Below are positions 1-64,000 of a DNA stretch of 64,000 nt, in pieces. Each line of letters begins with the position of its first letter. Position 1 is the first letter of the stretch. The stretch covers positions 1 through 64,000 of the forward strand of contig CAJXVM010000009.1 of assembly GCA_913061095.1 (NCBI GenBank), given 5' to 3'. Origin of the DNA: an uncultured Ignavibacteria bacterium (lineage in GTDB: Bacteria > Bacteroidota > Ignavibacteria > SZUA-365). The position numbers and the translations under genes were made by a program. The notes beneath the pieces were generated by a model, which did not search any database, was not told the DNA's origin, and saw nothing but the letters and a program-made list of their open reading frames with translations.

Positions 1-570
1 TTTTACGGCGACCGCTATGCCGGACTGAGCGAGACGGCGCTGCATTTCATCGGCGGACTGCTCAAGCATGCGCCCGCGCTGTGCGCCATCACAAATCCCA
101 CAACGAACAGTTACAAGCGTCTGGTGCCGGGATACGAGGCGCCGGTGAATCTCGCCTATTCGCAGCGCAACCGCAGCGCGTCGGTGCGCATCCCGATGTA
201 CTCCTCTTCACCGAAGAGCAAGCGCGTTGAATTCCGCACCCCCGATCCCTCCACAAATCCCTATCTCGCCTTCAGCGCGCTGCTCATGGCCGGACTCGAC
301 GGCGTCACGAGCCGCATCGATCCCGGAGAGCCGCTGGACAAGGACATTTACGACATGAAGCCCGAGGAGCTGAAGGACGTGCCGAACACACCCGCCACGC
401 TCGAGGAGGCGCTGTACGCCCTCGAGCGCGATCATGATTTCCTGCTGCGCGGCAACGTGTTCACAGAGAGCGTCATCGAGACCTGGATCGACTACAAGAT
501 GAACCGCGAGGCCAGGCAGATCGCCCTGCGGCCGCACCCGTACGAGTTCAGTCTCTATTATGATGTGTAA
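1..570 (+). CDS. glnA: Glutamine synthetase type I, C-terminal part (5' end outside window)
   Basis: The frame is open from base 1, so 189 C-terminal residues are in view and the start lies upstream. Glutamine synthetase joins ammonia and glutamate using ATP in the cytoplasm. The segment carries the conserved glutamate-loop region ([17 protein letters not shown]), then [14 protein letters not shown], then [20 protein letters not shown], all hallmarks of GS type I. The stretch [10 protein letters not shown] (tyrosine codon at 349-351) matches the adenylylation loop of GS-I-beta (NLYDLPPEE in enterics), which fits the glnE gene at 12890. The gene ends in a large palindrome containing a terminator-like core. 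Identification is firm; whether the tyrosine is really modified is inference. Confidence 0.95.
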
Positions 571-584
571 GCTGTAAGCTCTTG

Positions 585-789
585 GTGGGCACAAAGATAC
601 CAGGACACAAAGCCACGAAGGGAAATGTGAACAACGAAGCTCTCGAAAGGAGCGAAGGTTTTATCAAACGGAAAAGGCCCAGCACATCTGCCGGGCCTTT
701 TCCGTTCTGAAAACAACCTTCGTTCTCTTCGTCCCTTCGTTGTTCCCGTTTCCTTCGTGGCTTCGTGACTTCGTGTCCTCGTGCCCATC
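585..789. repeat. Long imperfect palindrome built of NACGAAG units
   Basis: Two arms of about 95 nt (585-680 and 693-789) are near-complementary around the 12-nt loop 681-692. Each arm is made of repeated CACGAAG/AACGAAG-like words, for example ACAACGAAG and GCCACGAAGG on the left and CCTTCGTGGC and CTTCGTTGT on the right. It fills the whole spacer between convergent glnA and the DUF5683 gene. Related elements lie at 57372-57494 and 62062-62222. No protein is encoded. I infer a dispersed palindromic repeat that also serves as a bidirectional terminator. Confidence 0.8.
669..704. terminator. Bidirectional terminator-like hairpin at the core of the palindrome
   Basis: A perfect 12-bp stem, CGGAAAAGGCCC (669-680) with GGGCCTTTTCCG (693-704), closes a 12-nt loop between the convergent ends of glnA and the DUF5683 gene. 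A/T-rich runs lie inside the stem on both strands, so it could stop transcription from either side. Confidence 0.6.
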
Positions 790-800
790 AAGAGCAAGAA

Positions 801-1346
801 CTAAAATCTCCACTGCAGGGCGGCACCGGAGGGAGCGGGGAGGAGGGTGACCGATGACGTTTCGGAAACGTCAAAGGAGAACAGCGCTGCGTCGACGTAT
901 GCATCGGCGAGCTGAAGGAGGTAGGTGACCAGCAGCCACCAGCCGTATGTGTCGCGGTTGTCGCGGTAGAATTCGCGGAAGCGCTTGAGCCGGAGATCAC
1001 CCGAAGGATTCTCCTCGGTGATCGTGGCCTCGTACTGATCACGGTAATCGACGTACTGCTGATGCTCGGAGATCATGCCGTAGATCAGCCAGCCGCTGAG
1101 TCCGAGCACGATCGGCACCTTCCAGTACGATTCGTTGTAGAACTGTCCCCAGCCCGGAATCACCGCCGCACGAAGCACGGCGCCCATCGGCGATTTCGTC
1201 TCGATGCTGTCGGCGGCGGGTTCGATCTCCTGCGCCTCGATCTGCGGCACGACCTCGCGCTCCGGCTGCTCCTCTTCCTCCGCCTGCGCATACAGCACGG
1301 GCGCGAGCATCAGAAGCAGAAGGACGATATGGAGTGCGCTCCGCAT
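801..1346 (-). CDS. DUF5683-family membrane protein
   Basis: 181 residues. An N-terminal signal peptide (hydrophobic stretch about 5-17, likely cleaved after LYAQA) is followed by an acidic linker, then the conserved PGWGQFYN motif (about 64-71) with SYWKVP, and further hydrophobic segments near 76-92 and 135-155. That pattern is typical of DUF5683 proteins, common in Bacteroidota and relatives and of unknown function. It is transcribed away from ddl, with which it shares a 125-bp divergent spacer, and it ends beside the 585-789 palindrome. Family assignment is fairly sure; no role can be given beyond an envelope location. Confidence 0.75.
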   Translation of the reverse strand: MRSALHIVLLLLMLAPVLYAQAEEEEQPEREVVPQIEAQEIEPAADSIETKSPMGAVLRAAVIPGWGQFYNESYWKVPIVLGLSGWLIYGMISEHQQYVDYRDQYEATITEENPSGDLRLKRFREFYRDNRDTYGWWLLVTYLLQLADAYVDAALFSFDVSETSSVTLLPAPSGAALQWRF

Positions 1347-34892: not shown

Positions 34893-34900
34893 GAGTCTTA

Positions 34901-34974
34901 CCACAGATTGCACTGATTACACGGATTGGCTTTCTCCATGAGAAAGCCCTTCGTGTAATCCGTGCAATCTGTGG
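34901..34974. repeat. CACAGATTGCAC palindromic element
   Basis: Left arm 34901-34935 and right arm 34941-34974 pair almost fully around loop CCATG (34936-34940): CCACAGATTGCAC with GTGCAATCTGTGG, then GATTACACG with CGTGTAATC, and GGCTTTCT with AGAAAGCC. It sits 8 nt after the operon's last stop codon, so it may act as the terminator. Similar intergenic words (CACAGATT...GATTACAC) occur, to my memory, in many unrelated genomes; not verified here. Confidence 0.75.
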
Positions 34975-35169
34975 TTCCTCTTTTGGTTTCTTCCCCCTGA
35001 TGCGGGATAATCACATCGCGAATTGTGAATAATTTCCTATATTTGTTACTGGCGTCGCGAGGATCGCTGCGTCTGCTCATACCTCGGATCTCCCACCGGC
35101 AGGGTGAGCCTATCCCCTGAAAATATTGCGACTTATATCCACGCACCACTTTTCATAAGGAGCTGATTT

Positions 35170-56108: not shown

Positions 56109-57362
56109 ATGGCACGCCTGAACGCACTGCTTCGCGAATTCATCCACGACCTCGGGGCGCACCGGCTTCGTGCGGCCTTGACCATTCTCGCCTTTGTCTG
56201 GGGCACCGCCGCCGTGGTGCTGCTGCTGGCATTTGGGACCGGACTGAAGCGGAGCCTCATGGAGGCCATGACGAATTCCGGCGACGGCATCACGCGGCTG
56301 TACGGTGGCACGACGTCGCGCACCTATGAGGGATTCCCGAAAGGGCGCGACATCCGCTTCGTGGAGGAAGATGTGGAGATGCTTCGCGAGGCGGTGCGGG
56401 GCATCCGCAGCATCACCCCCGCGTACGGCCGGTACGACATCCAGGTGCGTTACGAAAGAAACAAGACGTCCGGATACACGATCGGTGTATATCCTGAAAT
56501 GCAGTACCAGCGCAGCATGTATCCCGAGTACGGCGGACGGTTCATCAGTGACGCCGACCTGCGGGAGAAGCGGCGCGTACTGGTGCTGGGGTCCGAGATC
56601 GCTGAGAAACTGTTCGGGGAGGTCAATCCCGTCGGAAGAACCGTTGTCCTCGAGGGAGTGCCATTCACTGTCATCGGTCAGCTGCAGGACAAAAAGCAGA
56701 TGGGGATGAGCAACGGTCCGGATTCCCGGCGCGTGATCATGCCTGCGTCGGTGTATCGGACCATGTTCAATCCCGATCACGTCGATCACATCGTCATTCA
56801 GCCTGAGCATCCCGGAGCGAGTGCCGCGATCAACCAGCGTGTGCTGGACGTGCTTTCCGCAAAATACAAGTTCGACAAGGATGACAGCCGTGCCTATCTC
56901 GCATGGGATCACGCCGAGCAGAGACGTGTCATGCGCCTGATCGGACTCGGGCTGACAATCTTTCTCGGTGTTGTCGGAGGAATGACGCTCGTGATCGCCG
57001 GCGTGGGCGTGGCGAATATCATGCTGGTGATCGTGCGGGAACGTACAAGGGAAATTGGCGTGAAGATGGCCGTGGGGGCGCGCAGGAAGGACATTCTCGC
57101 GCAGTTCCTTTTCGAGGCCGTGATGATTGCATTCACCGGTGGCGCTGTCGGCCTGCTGTTCGCGGGCAGTGTGATCGGCTTCATCCAGTCACTGCCGCCG
57201 ACGGACAACTTCGGGCTGCAGCTGCTGGGGCGTCCGGTCATGTCACTGTCGGTCACCGTGATTACGGTGACGGTGTTGTCGCTCATCGCCGTTATCGCCG
57301 GGTACATCCCCGCGCGTCGCGCCGCGTCCGTTGATCCCATCGAATCCCTCCGCTACGAATAA
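56109..57362 (+). CDS. MacB-type ABC transporter permease (second)
   Basis: 417 residues from ATG 56109, directly after the first permease stop; an upstream frame extension to 56037 is not needed. Same architecture: N-terminal helix (about 24-46), periplasmic MacB-PCD-like domain (about 50-280), and C-terminal RERTREIGVKMAVGARRKDILAQFLFEA with three helices. Probably a heterodimer with the first permease. No ATPase gene follows; the next gene downstream is on the other strand and belongs to another operon. Confidence 0.88.
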   Translation: MARLNALLREFIHDLGAHRLRAALTILAFVWGTAAVVLLLAFGTGLKRSLMEAMTNSGDGITRLYGGTTSRTYEGFPKGRDIRFVEEDVEMLREAVRGIRSITPAYGRYDIQVRYERNKTSGYTIGVYPEMQYQRSMYPEYGGRFISDADLREKRRVLVLGSEIAEKLFGEVNPVGRTVVLEGVPFTVIGQLQDKKQMGMSNGPDSRRVIMPASVYRTMFNPDHVDHIVIQPEHPGASAAINQRVLDVLSAKYKFDKDDSRAYLAWDHAEQRRVMRLIGLGLTIFLGVVGGMTLVIAGVGVANIMLVIVRERTREIGVKMAVGARRKDILAQFLFEAVMIAFTGGAVGLLFAGSVIGFIQSLPPTDNFGLQLLGRPVMSLSVTVITVTVLSLIAVIAGYIPARRAASVDPIESLRYE

Positions 57363-57371
57363 ACGATACCG

Positions 57372-57494
57372 GAACAACGAAGTCCCGAAGAGAACGAAGG
57401 CTGTTTCACAGCAGAAACAAACAGCAGGTTCGCCGGGGTCTCTCTTTCGAATGAACGCTTCGTGTCTTCGAGTCCCCGTGTCTTCGTGTCCCCA
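57372..57494. repeat. Truncated NACGAAG palindrome
   Basis: GGAACAACGAAGTCCCGAAGAGAACGAAGG (57372-57401), then a CTGTTT...AAACAG core and TCTTCGTGTCC-like right side to 57494. The left arm carries the inner words and the right arm the outer words of the element at 585, as if the inner right and outer left parts were lost. Sits between convergent permease and AttH genes. Confidence 0.6.
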
Positions 57495-57499
57495 AGAGC

Positions 57500-58672
57500 T
57501 TATTCTTCGTATCCCGTGAGTTCGACGTAGCCATATCCGCCGCGGTCGCCGGTGACGCGCACGGCGCCCTCCCAGTAGAGAACGGAAAGCGGCATTTCCT
57601 GGTCGTCCTGCATCGGAGTGATACGCAGGATCATGCCGAGAGGCACGATGCTGATATCCCACCCCGACGGCCACGTGATGCCGGTGCGAGGGGAGGTCCA
57701 GCTGCTGCGCGGGACGATGCGGAAATCCCTGCTTTCCAGCTTCTGCGTGCCGCCATCCACGTCAATGAAGATGCCGGAGGAAAACGGATCCACGCCGCCG
57801 TCGCGCAGCCGCAGCTGGTAGAGCATGAGCTCGGTACCGTCGTCGAACTGCAGGGAGAACCAGTCCCACCCGCTTTGTTCTTCTGCAAGGACGCTGGTAC
57901 TCCATTCGCGGTCGAGCCAACTCCGGCCGGTTATAGGGACGCGCTCCCCGTTGAGCAGCACGTGCCCCCGGGTTTCCTGCCGCGTGCGGCTGTAGTAGTA
58001 TGAGGCATTCCCGGGGTCACCGCTCTTGCGGCTGAGACCGCGTTCACCCTGCAGCACGCGCGGCTTGGTGGCGCGAAGGGAAAGATCGATCCCGAAACCA
58101 TCCTGTTCGGCGAACAGGCGGACGCTGTCGGGGTGTCCTGTCGCCTGCCAGTTGTCGATCCAGACCCGGAAGGGATCTGCCTGGGCACCGGCGAGTCCCG
58201 CCACGCCGCGGCTGAAGCGTTCGAAGGGATAAAAGCGCTCGCCGTCGATGTCACTCAGCGCGAGATGCGCGAAGTAGAGCTGGCGGCTGCGCCATTCGCT
58301 GCCGCTGATGGAGTCGGGCGCGAGTGCCTGGCGGAATACCGTGAACTGGTAGCCGAAGCGCCGTCCGTCGCCGGCGGTGAGGTTTCCCGTCCAGTACCAC
58401 CACTCGGTCTTGAAATCCGGATGCGGACCGGCGTCCGCGGGGAAGCGAAACTCTCGCGGCCCGTAGGCGCGCGCGTAGCCTGTCGTGTCGGCGCCCGAAA
58501 GCGCGGCGAGTCCCTGTGTATCCTCGCCGGGTTTGTCCTTTTCATGATCGCATGCGGGGAGGAGTACGAGTGCGAGCAGGGGTAGGAACACGAGCAGCCG
58601 CAGGCCGAGCCGAAGCCATGCGTTCAGCTTCTCGAAGCCGTTCGAGATACTGCGGGTAAAAAGGCGGAGCAT
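57500..58672 (-). CDS. AttH/CrtC-like lipocalin-fold lipoprotein
   Basis: About 390 residues from ATG 58672; GTG 58696 adds eight but would overlap the permease stop by 11 nt. Signal anchor then lipobox LLPA-C (about 41 from that start). The body matches the hydroxyneurosporene synthase (CrtC)/AttH family: PHPDFKTEWWYWTGNL, FGYQFTVFRQ, YYYSRTRQETRG and SWLDREWSTSVLAEEQSGWDWFSLQ. In att-type operons it accompanies an ABC transporter, as here. Probably an outer-membrane-directed lipid or polymer binder; ligand unknown. Ends beside the 57372 repeat. Confidence 0.82.
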   Translation of the reverse strand: MLRLFTRSISNGFEKLNAWLRLGLRLLVFLPLLALVLLPACDHEKDKPGEDTQGLAALSGADTTGYARAYGPREFRFPADAGPHPDFKTEWWYWTGNLTAGDGRRFGYQFTVFRQALAPDSISGSEWRSRQLYFAHLALSDIDGERFYPFERFSRGVAGLAGAQADPFRVWIDNWQATGHPDSVRLFAEQDGFGIDLSLRATKPRVLQGERGLSRKSGDPGNASYYYSRTRQETRGHVLLNGERVPITGRSWLDREWSTSVLAEEQSGWDWFSLQFDDGTELMLYQLRLRDGGVDPFSSGIFIDVDGGTQKLESRDFRIVPRSSWTSPRTGITWPSGWDISIVPLGMILRITPMQDDQEMPLSVLYWEGAVRVTGDRGGYGYVELTGYEE

Positions 58673-58685
58673 GACGTGTCGTCTG

Positions 58686-61226
58686 TTATTCCGCACGGAG
58701 GGCCTCCGCGGGTTTTATGCGTCCGAAGCGGATGGCGGGATACAGCCCTGCGAGCATCGCGGCCGAGACAGCCACGCCGAAGGCCTGCAGGAGGTCCAGC
58801 GGCTGCAGGTGCAGGGCGAGTGTCCACCCGAAGGAACGCAGGTTGATGACAAATATCAGGATGAGTGCCATGAGGAAACCGACGGGCAGCGCGAGCAGCC
58901 CGGATATTGCGCCCATGATGCCGGTCTCCGTGAGAATGAGCCGTGTCACCTGTGTGCGCGACATGCCGGTGGCGCGCAGCGTGCCGATCTCGCGCGTCCG
59001 CTCGAGCTGCAATGCCATCAGTGCGTTGAAAACGCCGATGAAGGCGACGAGCGCGGCGAGCAGCTGCAGGGCGGCGGTGATGCTGAAGGTGCGGTCGAAG
59101 ATGTCCATGGCCGCGCCCCGCAGGCCGCGGTTGGACTGCACGATGAGCTGTTCTTCCGCGTGCAGATCCTGCTGCAGCTGTGCAACGACACGATCGGCGT
59201 TCGTACCCGGACGCAGGAAGGCTGCGACCGAGGAGATGAGCGTGTCGCTCCAGAACCGCCGGTAGATGTTATCCTCCATCAGCACGGTGCCCTTGTCGCT
59301 GGAGTAATCGTAATAGATCCCCGCCACGGGAAAGCGCTGCTCTCCACGGTCGGTGAGAAGCGTCACGGCGGCATCCGCATCAGCCGCGATATCGTTGCGG
59401 TATGCGAAGGGCTCGGATATCAGCACCGCGCCGCGTTCGAGCGCATTCCATGTCTCCGAACGGCTTCGGGGCAGCCACTTGAACGGACGCCGCTCGGCGA
59501 TGTCGTCGGTGACCGCGACGAGCTGATGCATGCCGTAGCGCTCGGAGGTGAGTGTCAGGGTCCGCGCCGTTGAAGTGCGCGTGACATCCGGATGCGCGTC
59601 CACCTGCCGCCGGAGCTCCGGCGAGGTCCCCTCGTTCTGCCCGGCTCCGGTGAAGGGAATTGTGACGAATATGTCTGCCCCCAGCGTGGTACCGAGCCAG
59701 TCGACCACCGTCTGACGGAATGAGCCGATCATGGTATTGACACCGACGATCACGGAGACGGCGATCATCAACGCGGCGATGGCCACGGTCGTGCGGCTCA
59801 GAGAACGCGCGATACTGCGTGCCGCCATCCCGCCGGTGATGCCGAGTACGCGGCGCAGTGCCGGAGCGAGCACGCGCATCAGAAAGCGCAGAGTGACGGG
59901 AATCAGAAAGGATGCGGCCACGAGAAGCAGGAACACGGCGGCGAAGCTGAGATCGATGCGCCTGTGCGGCAGGTAAATCAGCAGCGCGCTTACTGCGAGC
60001 AACAGCAACCCGGCGATGGTGAGACGCGGGAGGATATGCCGGATGCGGTCTTCGAGTCCGATCCGCCGCATGACACCCGCAGGACGACTGCGCATCGCTT
60101 CCCGCGCAGGGGGATACGCCGCGAGCAGCGAGGCGCCGAGTCCAAGCGCAATCCCCTTGATGAACGTCCACGGCGACAGCACGACGTCGGTCACCGTCAT
60201 CGTGTAATACAGGTCCGAAATCGTGCGCGTCACGAGATCCAGCGCGCCGCTGCCGAGGAGCATGCCGAGGAACAGTCCCAGCAGGGTTCCGGCGGATGCA
60301 AGCATCGCGGTCTCCCCGAGGATCATTCCGGCGATCTGTCCGCGGGATGCGCCGACGGCTCGCAGCACGCCGAACTGCTCACGCCGCTGCACAACAGAAA
60401 ACGAAACCGTGTCGTAGATGAGAAACATCCCCACCACGAGAGCGAGCAGGCTCAGTGCCGTGAGGTTCAGGGAGAATGCTTCCGTCATCGAGGATATGGC
60501 GCTGCTGCGTTTTTCCGCGCGCTGGATGCGCACGCCGTCCGGAAGCACGTCACGCAGCGTGCCGGCAGCGGCAGCGCTGTCGGACGGCAGGATGAGATCG
60601 ATATGACTCAGCCGACCGTGCATCGCGAGCATGTCCTGCGCGGTGGCGATGTCGGCGATGATCATTCCGCGGAGCGAGCGTCGCGCAAGTTCATCCGACG
60701 GCTGAAGCAGTGCCGTCACGACCGCACGCAGCCGCCGGGGCTCACGCAGGAGCACGAGCGAATCTCCCGGACGCACATTCAGTTCAGCAGCGAGATCGCG
60801 CGAGAGAAGGACAGCCCCTTCCCGTGTCATAAAGCGCTGCAGGATGGAGAAATCGACGCTGCGTCCGACATAGCTGCGGAAGGGCGCCTCCGAGAAGGGG
60901 TCGATGCCGAGCAGGCGCAGGATCCGGCCGTCCGCTGTCTGCACGACGCCCTCGATGACCGGCGCACTGGGACGAAAGCCTGTCGTTCTGCGGAGCTGTG
61001 TGAACACGGTATCGGCGATCCCGGTCGGACCACCGACGATCTGATGGGTGGCTTTTCCCGTGAGGCTGCTGGTGGACATGCGGAAGCTGCGATCCGCGCT
61101 GACATTCGCGATGTCGATGCCAATGACAACGGCGACCCCCAGCGCCACGCCGAGTACCAGCAGTGCCGCCTGCAGCGGATGCCTGCGATGATAGCGAAGT
61201 CCGGTCCGCAGCAGTGCGCGGTTCAT
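58686..61226 (-). CDS. Long FtsX-like ABC transporter permease, two-domain (AttF/AttG-like)
   Basis: 846 residues. N-terminal helix (about 15-38), periplasmic region, three helices (about 250-370) with LRAVGASRGQIAGMILGE, a middle helical region, a second periplasmic domain, and a final FtsX unit (about 720-840) with LERTREIGTLRATGMSRTQVTRLIL. Two fused FtsX domains are typical of permeases whose ATPase is a separate gene. Overlaps the ATPase stop by 4 nt. Likely lipoprotein or lipid extrusion with the adjacent AttH-like protein. Confidence 0.88.
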   Translation of the reverse strand: MNRALLRTGLRYHRRHPLQAALLVLGVALGVAVVIGIDIANVSADRSFRMSTSSLTGKATHQIVGGPTGIADTVFTQLRRTTGFRPSAPVIEGVVQTADGRILRLLGIDPFSEAPFRSYVGRSVDFSILQRFMTREGAVLLSRDLAAELNVRPGDSLVLLREPRRLRAVVTALLQPSDELARRSLRGMIIADIATAQDMLAMHGRLSHIDLILPSDSAAAAGTLRDVLPDGVRIQRAEKRSSAISSMTEAFSLNLTALSLLALVVGMFLIYDTVSFSVVQRREQFGVLRAVGASRGQIAGMILGETAMLASAGTLLGLFLGMLLGSGALDLVTRTISDLYYTMTVTDVVLSPWTFIKGIALGLGASLLAAYPPAREAMRSRPAGVMRRIGLEDRIRHILPRLTIAGLLLLAVSALLIYLPHRRIDLSFAAVFLLLVAASFLIPVTLRFLMRVLAPALRRVLGITGGMAARSIARSLSRTTVAIAALMIAVSVIVGVNTMIGSFRQTVVDWLGTTLGADIFVTIPFTGAGQNEGTSPELRRQVDAHPDVTRTSTARTLTLTSERYGMHQLVAVTDDIAERRPFKWLPRSRSETWNALERGAVLISEPFAYRNDIAADADAAVTLLTDRGEQRFPVAGIYYDYSSDKGTVLMEDNIYRRFWSDTLISSVAAFLRPGTNADRVVAQLQQDLHAEEQLIVQSNRGLRGAAMDIFDRTFSITAALQLLAALVAFIGVFNALMALQLERTREIGTLRATGMSRTQVTRLILTETGIMGAISGLLALPVGFLMALILIFVINLRSFGWTLALHLQPLDLLQAFGVAVSAAMLAGLYPAIRFGRIKPAEALRAE

Positions 61227-61981: not shown

Positions 61982-62061
61982 TCCAGCTTCCATGTTGTTC
62001 ATCACACCCCATACAACACGCTTGAAGCTTCAAATAACTCCCCGGGGAGAGAATATTCTTG

Positions 62062-62222
62062 GGGGCACGAAGGGCACGAAGTCGCGAAGACACGAAGAAT
62101 TTGAACAACGAAGTCATCGAAGGAAGCGAAGAAGCATTTTCACAGAAAAGACCCGGCAAACCTGCCGGATCTTTCCTGTGATAGAAATCTTCGTTCCTTC
62201 GTCCCTTCGTTGTTCAAATTCA
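62062..62222. repeat. NACGAAG palindrome before cydB stop
   Basis: GCACGAAGGGCACGAAG... then GAATTTGAACAACGAAG (62097-62113) mirrored by CTTCGTTGTTCAAATTC (62206-62222). The centre holds CGGCA...TGCCGG. Same family as 585-789. It abuts the cydB stop codon (62223-62225), downstream of cydB on the minus strand. Confidence 0.75.
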
Positions 62223-63239
62223 TCAGTAGCTGAATTTTCCGAGGGTCGTTTTGCCGCGGAAGATCCAGTAGATCGCGATGGTGTAGCTGAGTACGAAAGG
62301 CATGCCGAGAATGGCGATCCAGCGCATGATGCCGAGCGTTTTCTGCGACGAGGCCGCGTTGTAAATGGTCAGGTTATACGCGGGATCGATGCTCGAGACG
62401 ATCATGTTCGGGAACAGAGCGAAGCCGAACAGGAAGGTCAGCGCGGCGATGGTCGCCGTCGAAGAAATGAACGCGTATCCCGGGCGTCCGACGTAAATCG
62501 CGCGCGGAATATTCGCGATGGCCAGCACGTTGAGTACGACAACGACCCATGCCCACGGGACGTCGCGGAAATTCGTCACGGCGCTGGGCAGGCTGACGAG
62601 TGTGGCCATCGTGGAGAATATGTACAGCACGAGGAAAATCCCGAACGTCGTCCACATCCACCGGTGAATGCGTTTCTGCAGATCACCCTCGGTTTTGAGA
62701 TAAAGGTATATCGATCCGTGCATGGCGAAGGTCGCCACCGCGAAGACGCCGATGAGCAGAGGATAGGGACCAAGCAGGTCGAGCACAGTGCCCTGGAAAT
62801 TCATGTCGGCACCGATAGGCAGTCCGATCATGACATTGCCGACGGCGACACCGAAGAGGAAGGAGGCCAGCGTGCTGGCGACGGTGAAGGAAACATCCCA
62901 GGCTTTTCTCCACCGGGGATTCTCCTGCTTGCTGCGGAATTCCATCGATACGGCGCGGAAGATCAGCGCGAAAAGCAGGAAAATGAAGGGCAAGTAGAAT
63001 CCCGAGAAAGCTGTCGCATAGACATGCGGAAAGGCGGCGAACATCGCTCCACCGAAGGTGACGAGCCAGACCTCGTTGCCGTCCCAGAGGGGACCGATGG
63101 AATTCATCAGGATGCGCCGCTCCTCATCCTTCTTGACGAACAGGTGCAGGATACCAACGCCGAGATCGAAACCGTCGAGCACCGCGTACCCGATCAGCAG
63201 CACTCCCATCAGAACGAACCAGAAAATGTTGAGATCCAT
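62223..63239 (-). CDS. cydB: Cytochrome bd ubiquinol oxidase subunit II
   Basis: 338 residues from ATG 63239, with AGGAG properly spaced; a start at 63266 would overlap cydA. About eight membrane helices, beginning LNIFWFVLMGVLLIGYAVLDGFDLGVGILH, then GPLWDGNEVWLV and the later GSIYLYLKTEGDLQKR. CydB partners CydA in the high-affinity quinol oxidase of the cytoplasmic membrane. Gene order on this strand is cydA then cydB, a 1-nt gap apart. Confidence 0.95.
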   Translation of the reverse strand: MDLNIFWFVLMGVLLIGYAVLDGFDLGVGILHLFVKKDEERRILMNSIGPLWDGNEVWLVTFGGAMFAAFPHVYATAFSGFYLPFIFLLFALIFRAVSMEFRSKQENPRWRKAWDVSFTVASTLASFLFGVAVGNVMIGLPIGADMNFQGTVLDLLGPYPLLIGVFAVATFAMHGSIYLYLKTEGDLQKRIHRWMWTTFGIFLVLYIFSTMATLVSLPSAVTNFRDVPWAWVVVVLNVLAIANIPRAIYVGRPGYAFISSTATIAALTFLFGFALFPNMIVSSIDPAYNLTIYNAASSQKTLGIMRWIAILGMPFVLSYTIAIYWIFRGKTTLGKFSY

Positions 63240-63240
63240 G

Positions 63241-64000
63241 TTACTTCTCCTCCTTTCCGCGTTCACTATCCGCGGGACTGTCGCTGTTTCCAGGGCCGTT
63301 GCTGCCCGCGTGCTCGTCTCCGCGCGAGCTGGTCAGTGATGGACCACCCGTACCGGTGCGCGTGGAAATCGTCTCGATCATCCCTCCTTCTGCACCGGCT
63401 CCGGCGAGAGCGGATACATCTTCGGGACCTGTCTTGATTTTTTCGTTCATGATATACAGCCAGATGGCAAAGAGAAACAGGTAAATCACCGTGAAGAGAA
63501 TGATGGAAGTGAGCACTTCCCCTGCGGCCACCGATTTCGACAGTGCGTCACTGGTGCGCAGAAGGTCCTGGACGATCCACGGCTGCCGTCCGACCTCGGC
63601 TGCAATCCAGCCTGCCTGGTTGGAGATGTACGGTCCGATGATGGAGAACACGAACACCCAGAGCAGCCAGCGCTTGTCGAACAGCGTGCCGCGCCATCGG
63701 AAGAAGGCGGCCAGCAGCGTGATGAAGATGAAATACATCCCGAGGGATATCATGATGTGGTAGGATTGAAACGGGATCTGCAGCGGGGGACGGTCTTCCG
63801 GCGCATACTGATCGAGTCCGGTCACGGGGGTCGAGAAATCATTGTGAATAAGGAAACTGAGTCCACCCGGGATAGCCAGCCCGAGTCGCACGCGCTCTTC
63901 TTCCGCGTCAGGGATGCCGAACAGGTACATGTCGCCGGGGCCGGTGCGGAAATGTCCTTCGAAGGCCGCCAGCTTCGCCGGCTGCGTGACCGCCACCGTA
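63241..64000 (-). CDS. cydA: Cytochrome bd ubiquinol oxidase subunit I, C-terminal part (5' end outside window)
   Basis: The frame is open through base 64000, so the N-terminus with the haem ligands and Q-loop is missing; 253 residues remain. QPAKLAAFEGHF, NQAGWIAAEVGRQPWIVQDLLRT and the last membrane helices identify CydA. The final 60 residues are a Gly/Ser/Thr/Glu-rich tail (from about GPEDVSALAGAG) that is longer than most CydA C-termini and looks disordered. Cotranscribed with cydB. Confidence 0.95.
   Translation of the reverse strand, partial: TVAVTQPAKLAAFEGHFRTGPGDMYLFGIPDAEEERVRLGLAIPGGLSFLIHNDFSTPVTGLDQYAPEDRPPLQIPFQSYHIMISLGMYFIFITLLAAFFRWRGTLFDKRWLLWVFVFSIIGPYISNQAGWIAAEVGRQPWIVQDLLRTSDALSKSVAAGEVLTSIILFTVIYLFLFAIWLYIMNEKIKTGPEDVSALAGAGAEGGMIETISTRTGTGGPSLTSSRGDEHAGSNGPGNSDSPADSERGKEEK

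Follow-up and report, generated by a model that had tools for sequence, protein, structure and literature searches.

A palindromic word array in the glnA 3' spacer of an Ignavibacteria genome belongs to a dispersed repeat family associated with GxxExxY genes

Results

A palindrome of octamer words occupies the spacer between glnA and a convergent gene

The window analysed here is a 64,000-nt stretch of the genome of an uncultured Ignavibacteria bacterium, and its left end lies within glnA. A spacer of 230 nt separates the glnA stop from that of the convergent DUF5683 gene. The original prediction, that this spacer is filled by a near-perfect palindrome at 585-789, was borne out as to the palindrome and its place, but the element is larger (578-795) and less perfect than predicted, its gapped self-alignment being 79% identical. 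The features of the locus, and two further copies in the window, are as follows.

1-570, plus strand: 3' part of glnA (glutamine synthetase, Gln-synt_C; PF00120, E 4e-72), whose stop lies 8 nt before the element
578-795, no strand: whole palindromic element, a gene-free copy of the CACGAAG family, delimited by self-complementarity and folds
578-620, plus strand: outer left arm, composed of the tag GCTCTTGGTGGGCAC followed by the decayed words CACAAAG, ACCAGG, CACAAAG and CACGAAG; the sole arm surviving in the closest congener (G004)
621-659, plus strand: inner left arm GGAAATGTGAACAACGAAG-CTCTCGAAAGGAGCGAAGG, a module common to other copies
667-706, no strand: core, a bidirectional terminator-like hairpin AAAAGGCCCAGCA..TGCCGGGCCTTTT, with related, covarying cores in six other copies; negative in a strict terminator scan
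716-753, minus strand: inner right arm CCTTCGTTCTCTTCGTCCCTTCGTTGTTCCCGTTTCC
753-795, minus strand: outer right arm CTTCGTGGCTTCGTGACTTCGTGTCCTCGTGCCC plus tag ATCAAGAGC, with words close to the family consensus
801-1346, minus strand: convergent DUF5683 gene (PF18935, E 1e-32), whose stop lies 6 nt beyond the element
57362-57502, no strand: second copy, asymmetric, with a left inner arm and a right outer arm; the minus-strand gene 57500-58696 stops 3 nt before its tag
62057-62224, no strand: third copy, with the left tag TTCTTGGGGGCAC and four words, inner arms and a terminator-like core; the right outer arm is missing, and the copy ends at the stop of 62223-63266

The two arms, thought to be 95 nt long and almost fully complementary, are about 109 nt each and about 79% complementary. 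Each consists of an outer part made of octamers and an inner part (AACAACGAAG..GAAGG), and between them lies a core hairpin in which an A-tract and a T-tract border a GC stem. The repeated word, read at first as A/CACGAAG, is present and is better written as the octamer CACGAAGN. The central hairpin is also present, but it is longer than the perfect 12-bp stem predicted: at 667-706 it has the form A4-GC stem-T4, with 17/18 pairs.

Folding of positions 578-795 as RNA gave -138.9 and -139.4 kcal/mol for the two strands (z = -16.9 and -13.9), far more stable than shuffled sequences, none of which was as good (0/200). Tandem words are likewise in excess: 12 were found in the window versus 0.63 expected, and the maximum among 100 shuffles was 3. 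No Rfam family matched 578-795 at its gathering score, the only matches being eukaryotic miRNAs and snoRNAs far below theirs.

The arms are noncoding, and the possibility that they are conserved as protein-coding sequence did not hold. A minus-strand open reading frame does cover positions 558-797, but a coding reading was rejected, since the frame translates only the word array and a period of 8 nt is not a multiple of the codon length. This spurious frame reads MLLMGTRTRSHEATKETGTTKGRRERRLF..., and similar "GHEGTKARRHE" frames occur at other copies; frames of this type may pollute protein databases.

The core resembles a bidirectional terminator

The original prediction also held that the palindrome ends transcription of both convergent genes, which is plausible. 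Seven related cores could be compared, and in these 8/18 pairs have changed on both sides, a number reached by 0/500 shuffles. These cores may be homologous, or they may be separate local terminators. The enrichment in convergent spacers described below also speaks for a terminating role, but a strict terminator scan (at least five Ts in eight positions) gave no call for the core, which nevertheless has A4 and T4 around its GC stem on both strands. From these sequence features, the glnA copy probably ends both convergent transcripts.

Copies are dispersed in the genome and modular

The element is dispersed, as had been predicted. BLAST and pattern searches located CACGAAG-family copies at about 28 places in the 4.6-Mb genome (42 contigs), including the three in the window, and further copies were found in relatives. 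The copies are modular, with an outer arm TCTTGGGGGCACGAAGNCACGAAG.., an inner arm AATGGGAACAACGAAGGGACGAAGG and a core that is often of the type GGAAAGACCCGGCAGATCYGCCGGGTCTTTC, and their composition varies: some have outer arms only, others inner arms only, and others one side only. In the sampled genome, 21/34 tags (at most two mismatches) are followed by at least two words, compared with 0.8% of random positions.

De novo scans for palindromes and words, which covered a 436-kb sample of genome stretches, revealed that other short words also form palindromes, namely ACACAGAGG, CACAGATTACGC, GTGCAAAG, GTAAAGG, CAGATTG and GCAGGAGGCAGTA. Another word family (ACCACAGATTGCACTGATTACACG ... CGTGTAATCCGTGCAATCTGTGGT), of the type found around other GxxExxY genes of the genome, forms a palindrome at 34900-34975 in the window. 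Dense clusters of a further hairpin family (CCACACGCGTGAGCGTGTGG / CCCCACGCTCACGCGTGGGG), which is REP-like and has no tandem words, are present at C16:102000-103200 (L071, 2064-3157) and C16:68000-71000 (L069).

The arm is a directional unit placed after stop codons

Using gene calls made with a simple codon scorer, we determined where tags and palindromes are located. Of 23 tags followed by words, 19 lie downstream of a stop codon and share the orientation of the gene, the distance being at most 11 nt in 15 cases. Moreover, 9/12 CACGAAG palindromes lie in convergent spacers, which make up 20% of spacers (p 3e-5). Single and duplicated arms occur as well: a 46-nt arm is repeated at C16:97254-97345 (L070), and contig C188 of G004 also carries a repeated arm.

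The identity of outer arms is 0.775 within elements and 0.781 between elements. Because these values are equal in effect, the palindrome gives the impression of a pair of family members facing each other, not of a stem held in pairing. For the outer arms, the idea that gene conversion or selection on the stem keeps the hairpin perfect was rejected on the same grounds; compensation was seen in the core only. By sequence, the unit of the repeat family is a directional arm, in which a tag specific to the lineage (here TCTTGGGGGCAC) precedes octamers CRCNNAGN (here CACGAAGN) arrayed in tandem.

Word arrays flank GxxExxY genes

The genome contains three full-length GxxExxY genes (PF13366) and one fragment. 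One of these genes (C25:51081-51431) sits inside CACGAAG arms, in the loop of a palindrome, and the others lie within ACACAGAGG and CACAGA-type arms. The outer tag of the glnA copy, GCTCTTGGTGGGCAC, matches the tags TCTTGGGGGCAC / TCTTGGGGACAC of the gene-bearing copy of the same genome (L062). The loop of 578-795 contains no GxxExxY gene, but tandem CRCNNAG words point inward here too, with four matches in the right arm and one in the left, in the orientation seen in GxxExxY flanks.

The gene-bearing copy is located at the junction of the adenine deaminase gene and mutS, at the same place and with the same tag (TCTTGGGGGCAC), in G000, G001, G002 and G004. Because its place is fixed in four congeners, it may be an old resident instead of an active source. 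On its right flank (C25:51500-51620), three arms stand in tandem beside the GxxExxY gene with A/T runs between them, as if added successively.

We then surveyed 57 GxxExxY loci, taking one genome per species and scoring a flank as positive when a tandem pair of CRCNNAG words directed towards the gene was present within 220 nt; stretches 700-1300 nt away served as controls. Inward CRCNNAG flanks were found at 38/57 loci, on both sides at 23 of them, versus 0/410 controls and 1/30 four-helix-bundle loci. The positive loci span eight of the ten phylum-level groups, archaea included, and 19/57 genes lack the word pattern as defined. Arm matches in the outward orientation were much rarer (13 versus 61 inward), and the outer end of the flanking arms has the consensus TTNACCRCNNAG.

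The association is also apparent at the level of whole genomes. Triple word arrays in 61 relatives numbered 370, versus 12 for the reversed pattern, and at least three arrays were present in 24/43 relatives with a GxxExxY gene and in 1/18 without (Fisher p 2e-4, Spearman 0.56, values that ignore kinship). For CACGAAG pairs in 40 named GxxExxY genomes, the numbers were 414 versus 45. In G008, CGCAAAG-type arrays recur every ~113-240 nt and form larger tandem blocks (C1:2917060-2917443 and 4058801-4059399).

GxxExxY genes were absent from 50,697 phage records and rare on plasmids (8/72,556 records), and spread of the gene by phages or plasmids was rejected. In Sphingomonas parapaucimobilis (NZ_CP155749.1; L348), a GxxExxY gene separates fabD from fabG within the fatty-acid operon and seems to have been inserted into a conserved order of genes.

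GTAAAGG and CAGATTG words surround the two four-helix-bundle genes (PF05635) of the Ignavibacteria genome. Such genes are present at 1-16 per genome in 90/118 sampled genomes of the phylum, and inverted arrays of 7-8-nt words, for example AAGTATC or TTAGCTA, flank those at L060 (C16:6128-6436), L061 (C25:64534-64839) and L173-L202. The contig ends at the 3' side of L061 (C25:64914) and of L246 (C22:86778) carry an identical sequence (GAGAGCGTCCTGATTTTTGTGTAAATGGTCAAACACGG...), which is probably an insertion sequence that breaks the assembly and truncates a four-helix-bundle gene.

GxxExxY proteins are predicted nucleases

The open reading frames in the loops of gene-bearing copies encode clear members of the TIGR04256 / PF13366 GxxExxY family (PDDEXK_3; 7e-42). 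In an alignment of 29 GxxExxY proteins, residues G32, E35, Y38, D75, E85, K87 and Q99 are invariant. No solved structure related to GxxExxY by sequence was found, and a structure model was used (pLDDT 93). The best fold match obtained with Foldseek, with E-values that are weak, was Cas4 SSO0001 (probability 1.00, TM 0.54, E 2e-3), and this was followed by lambda exonuclease and then by archaeal splicing endonucleases and a Holliday junction resolvase. The model supports the view that GxxExxY is a small predicted PD-(D/E)XK nuclease. A known defence system was rejected, PADLOC being negative for both proteins tested.

The glnA spacer and other sites differ between relatives

In G004, the closest congener, the glnA spacer is 54 nt long and contains the glnA-side arm only, with 41/46 bases identical and the decayed words shared; the core and the second arm are absent. 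The distal arm is not a local copy of the proximal one because it lacks these decayed words, and an origin of the palindrome by local inverted duplication of one arm is therefore not supported. Palindromes of other words occupy the glnA spacer of G001, G002, G003 and G005 (-62 to -92 kcal/mol), and in G010 this spacer contains no palindrome.

In two spacers compared across four Holophagaceae genomes, the word palindromes differ; one CACGAAG palindrome encloses a palindrome of CGCAGAG words, and a remnant tag is present as well. Between genomes that are ~95% identical, one element differs by exactly two words (16 nt), and one side of a palindrome coincides with a rearrangement breakpoint (L291 versus L301).

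The element had been suggested to be mobile or recombinogenic. This is supported in part: changes in word number, tandem arm duplications, half elements, nesting and differing palindromes at one site were seen, but no clean pair of empty and occupied sites and no target-site duplication was found. Specifically, no clean empty site was detected in Holophagaceae G171, G174, G176 and G178 or at glnA in relatives, because each comparison gave a different palindrome, half of an element, a remnant or a spacer of unrelated sequence, and inspection by eye of seven copies revealed no target-site duplication. For these two reasons insertion remains putative; we infer that the arms may owe their mobility to the nuclease.

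Discussion

Sequence comparisons show the dispersal of the family, its modular anatomy, its placement after stop codons, the linkage of CRCNNAG words with GxxExxY genes across phyla and a predicted nuclease fold. The explanation that we consider, on balance, the probable one is that of a nuclease-linked dispersed repeat family at gene 3' ends, of which the glnA copy is a gene-free member. Arms are placed immediately behind stop codons, each in the orientation of its gene, and a palindrome results at convergent genes because each of the two has an arm in its own sense after its stop; a bidirectional terminator-like hairpin often lies between the two arms. Gene-bearing copies have two arms that face each other around the GxxExxY gene. 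According to the proposed explanation, the nuclease would recognise the word array, or the cruciform that it can form, and cut there, and repair from other copies together with slippage of words would spread, replace and shorten arms. Gene-free copies such as that at glnA would be non-autonomous progeny or remnants, kept where they are least harmful or where they are useful as transcript ends.

More tentatively, these arrays may represent an unnamed, phylum-spanning class of self-propagating elements, in which a Cas4/lambda-exonuclease-like GxxExxY protein encoded between inward octamer arrays spreads gene-free arms to gene 3' ends. Parallel families with four-helix-bundle proteins and 7-8-nt words may act alike, the protein family setting the word.

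The placement of the arms could also mean that they serve the host. The arms and core would then be bidirectional terminators or mRNA 3'-end stabilisers under selection, and GxxExxY genes would merely tolerate such surroundings. The sense orientation just after stops, the enrichment in convergent spacers, the covarying A-tract/GC stem/T-tract cores and the long stable hairpins in the glnA spacer of four relatives are all in line with such a function. However, a terminator requires neither 40-nt word arms nor an octamer common to phyla, and the strict scan finds none; the outer arms show no coevolution within an element, the closest congener lacks the core and one arm, and arrays accompany GxxExxY across numerous phyla without being seen around other genes or in control stretches. 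We consider a host-serving signal unlikely. It is less likely still that no mobile element is involved and that arrays and palindromes grow in place at terminator hairpins, by local slippage of replication and by template switching. Such processes would readily produce a difference of exactly two words between the arrays of ~95% identical genomes, tandem arm duplications and differing words at one spacer, but they do not predict the same tag and word at unrelated sites of one genome or the same word across phyla; nor do they fit a distal glnA arm lacking the decayed words of the proximal one, or arms that are no more alike within elements than between them.

A further alternative is a non-autonomous DDE transposon (MITE) or a REP-like element moved by a transposase or RAYT encoded elsewhere, with the GxxExxY gene hitch-hiking. 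Dispersed inverted repeats with nested and truncated copies are what such an element would leave, and one copy in Holophagaceae G174 (L301) has next to it what looks by eye like the C-terminus of a transposase. Against this stand the seven copies in which no target-site duplication was seen by eye, the variable number of arms and the lone arms, which are unlike fixed terminal repeats, and the recurrent gene in the loop, which is GxxExxY and not a transposase. We give this possibility a slim chance.

The nuclease-linked repeat family bears on several matters. The sampled genomes abound in word arrays such as CACGAAGACACGAAG, for which the literature searched has no explanation, and the tie of these arrays to a single family of nucleases across eight phylum-level groups suggests a testable function for both. 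The array family also accounts for spurious reading frames such as "...HEATKETGTTKGRR..." (window 558-797). It offers a system whose repeat word, nuclease and landing site just after stops are all evident from the sequence. If the nuclease drives the spread, non-autonomous repeats would be dispersed here without a known transposase or RAYT, and bacteria would gain ready-made bidirectional gene ends.

A literature search, largely of papers available without subscription, returned nothing relevant, whether for the words, for the names of the families or for their associations; the TIGR04256 / PF13366 family is known by name only, and no role in repeat elements was found for it in the literature searched. 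Among known systems, REP, REPIN and BIME sequences with their RAYT resemble the elements described here in being short, dispersed intergenic palindromes whose non-autonomous copies are tied to a separate gene. REPs are 20-40 bp long, carry a GTAG or CGTC tag and are linked to the Y1 transposase RAYT (TnpA-REP) (PMC3116915, PMC3733652, PMC2817692). Our elements differ from REPs and REPINs in having octamer arrays, a TCTTGGGGGCAC-type tag and the gene of a PD-(D/E)XK protein inside the palindrome, and the GTAG/CGTC end tag by which REPs are recognised (PMC3733652) is absent from 578-795, whose ends are GCTCTTGG / CCATCAAGAGC. MITEs and Correia elements (reviewed in PMC2229807) are similar in size, in their inverted repeats and in being noncoding and intergenic. 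Unlike them, the present elements show no target-site duplication, vary in arm number, commonly occur as lone arms and have no transposase parent that we could find; the only genes found between such arms at the loci examined encode GxxExxY.

The TAACTGA repeats of Beggiatoaceae are reportedly direct heptamer repeats near start codons. They too are horizontally scattered short-word arrays, described as being of unexplained purpose (MacGregor 2015, cited in PMC4853749), and the passage on them in PMC4853749 reports neither a palindrome nor a link to a nuclease, both of which are features of the elements described here. The intervening sequences of 23S rRNA genes, such as that of Coxiella, which carry an S23/four-helix-bundle reading frame (PMC4990558), resemble the gene-bearing copies in having a small reading frame enclosed as a loop by a long inverted repeat. 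However, the element described here lies between glnA and the DUF5683 gene, and the protein family and the CRCNNAG words are different; the two four-helix-bundle (PF05635) genes of this genome are also found among short-word arrays, with 7-8-nt words other than CRCNNAG. GxxExxY-linked word palindromes are apparently undescribed, and there is a fair chance that they constitute a class of their own.
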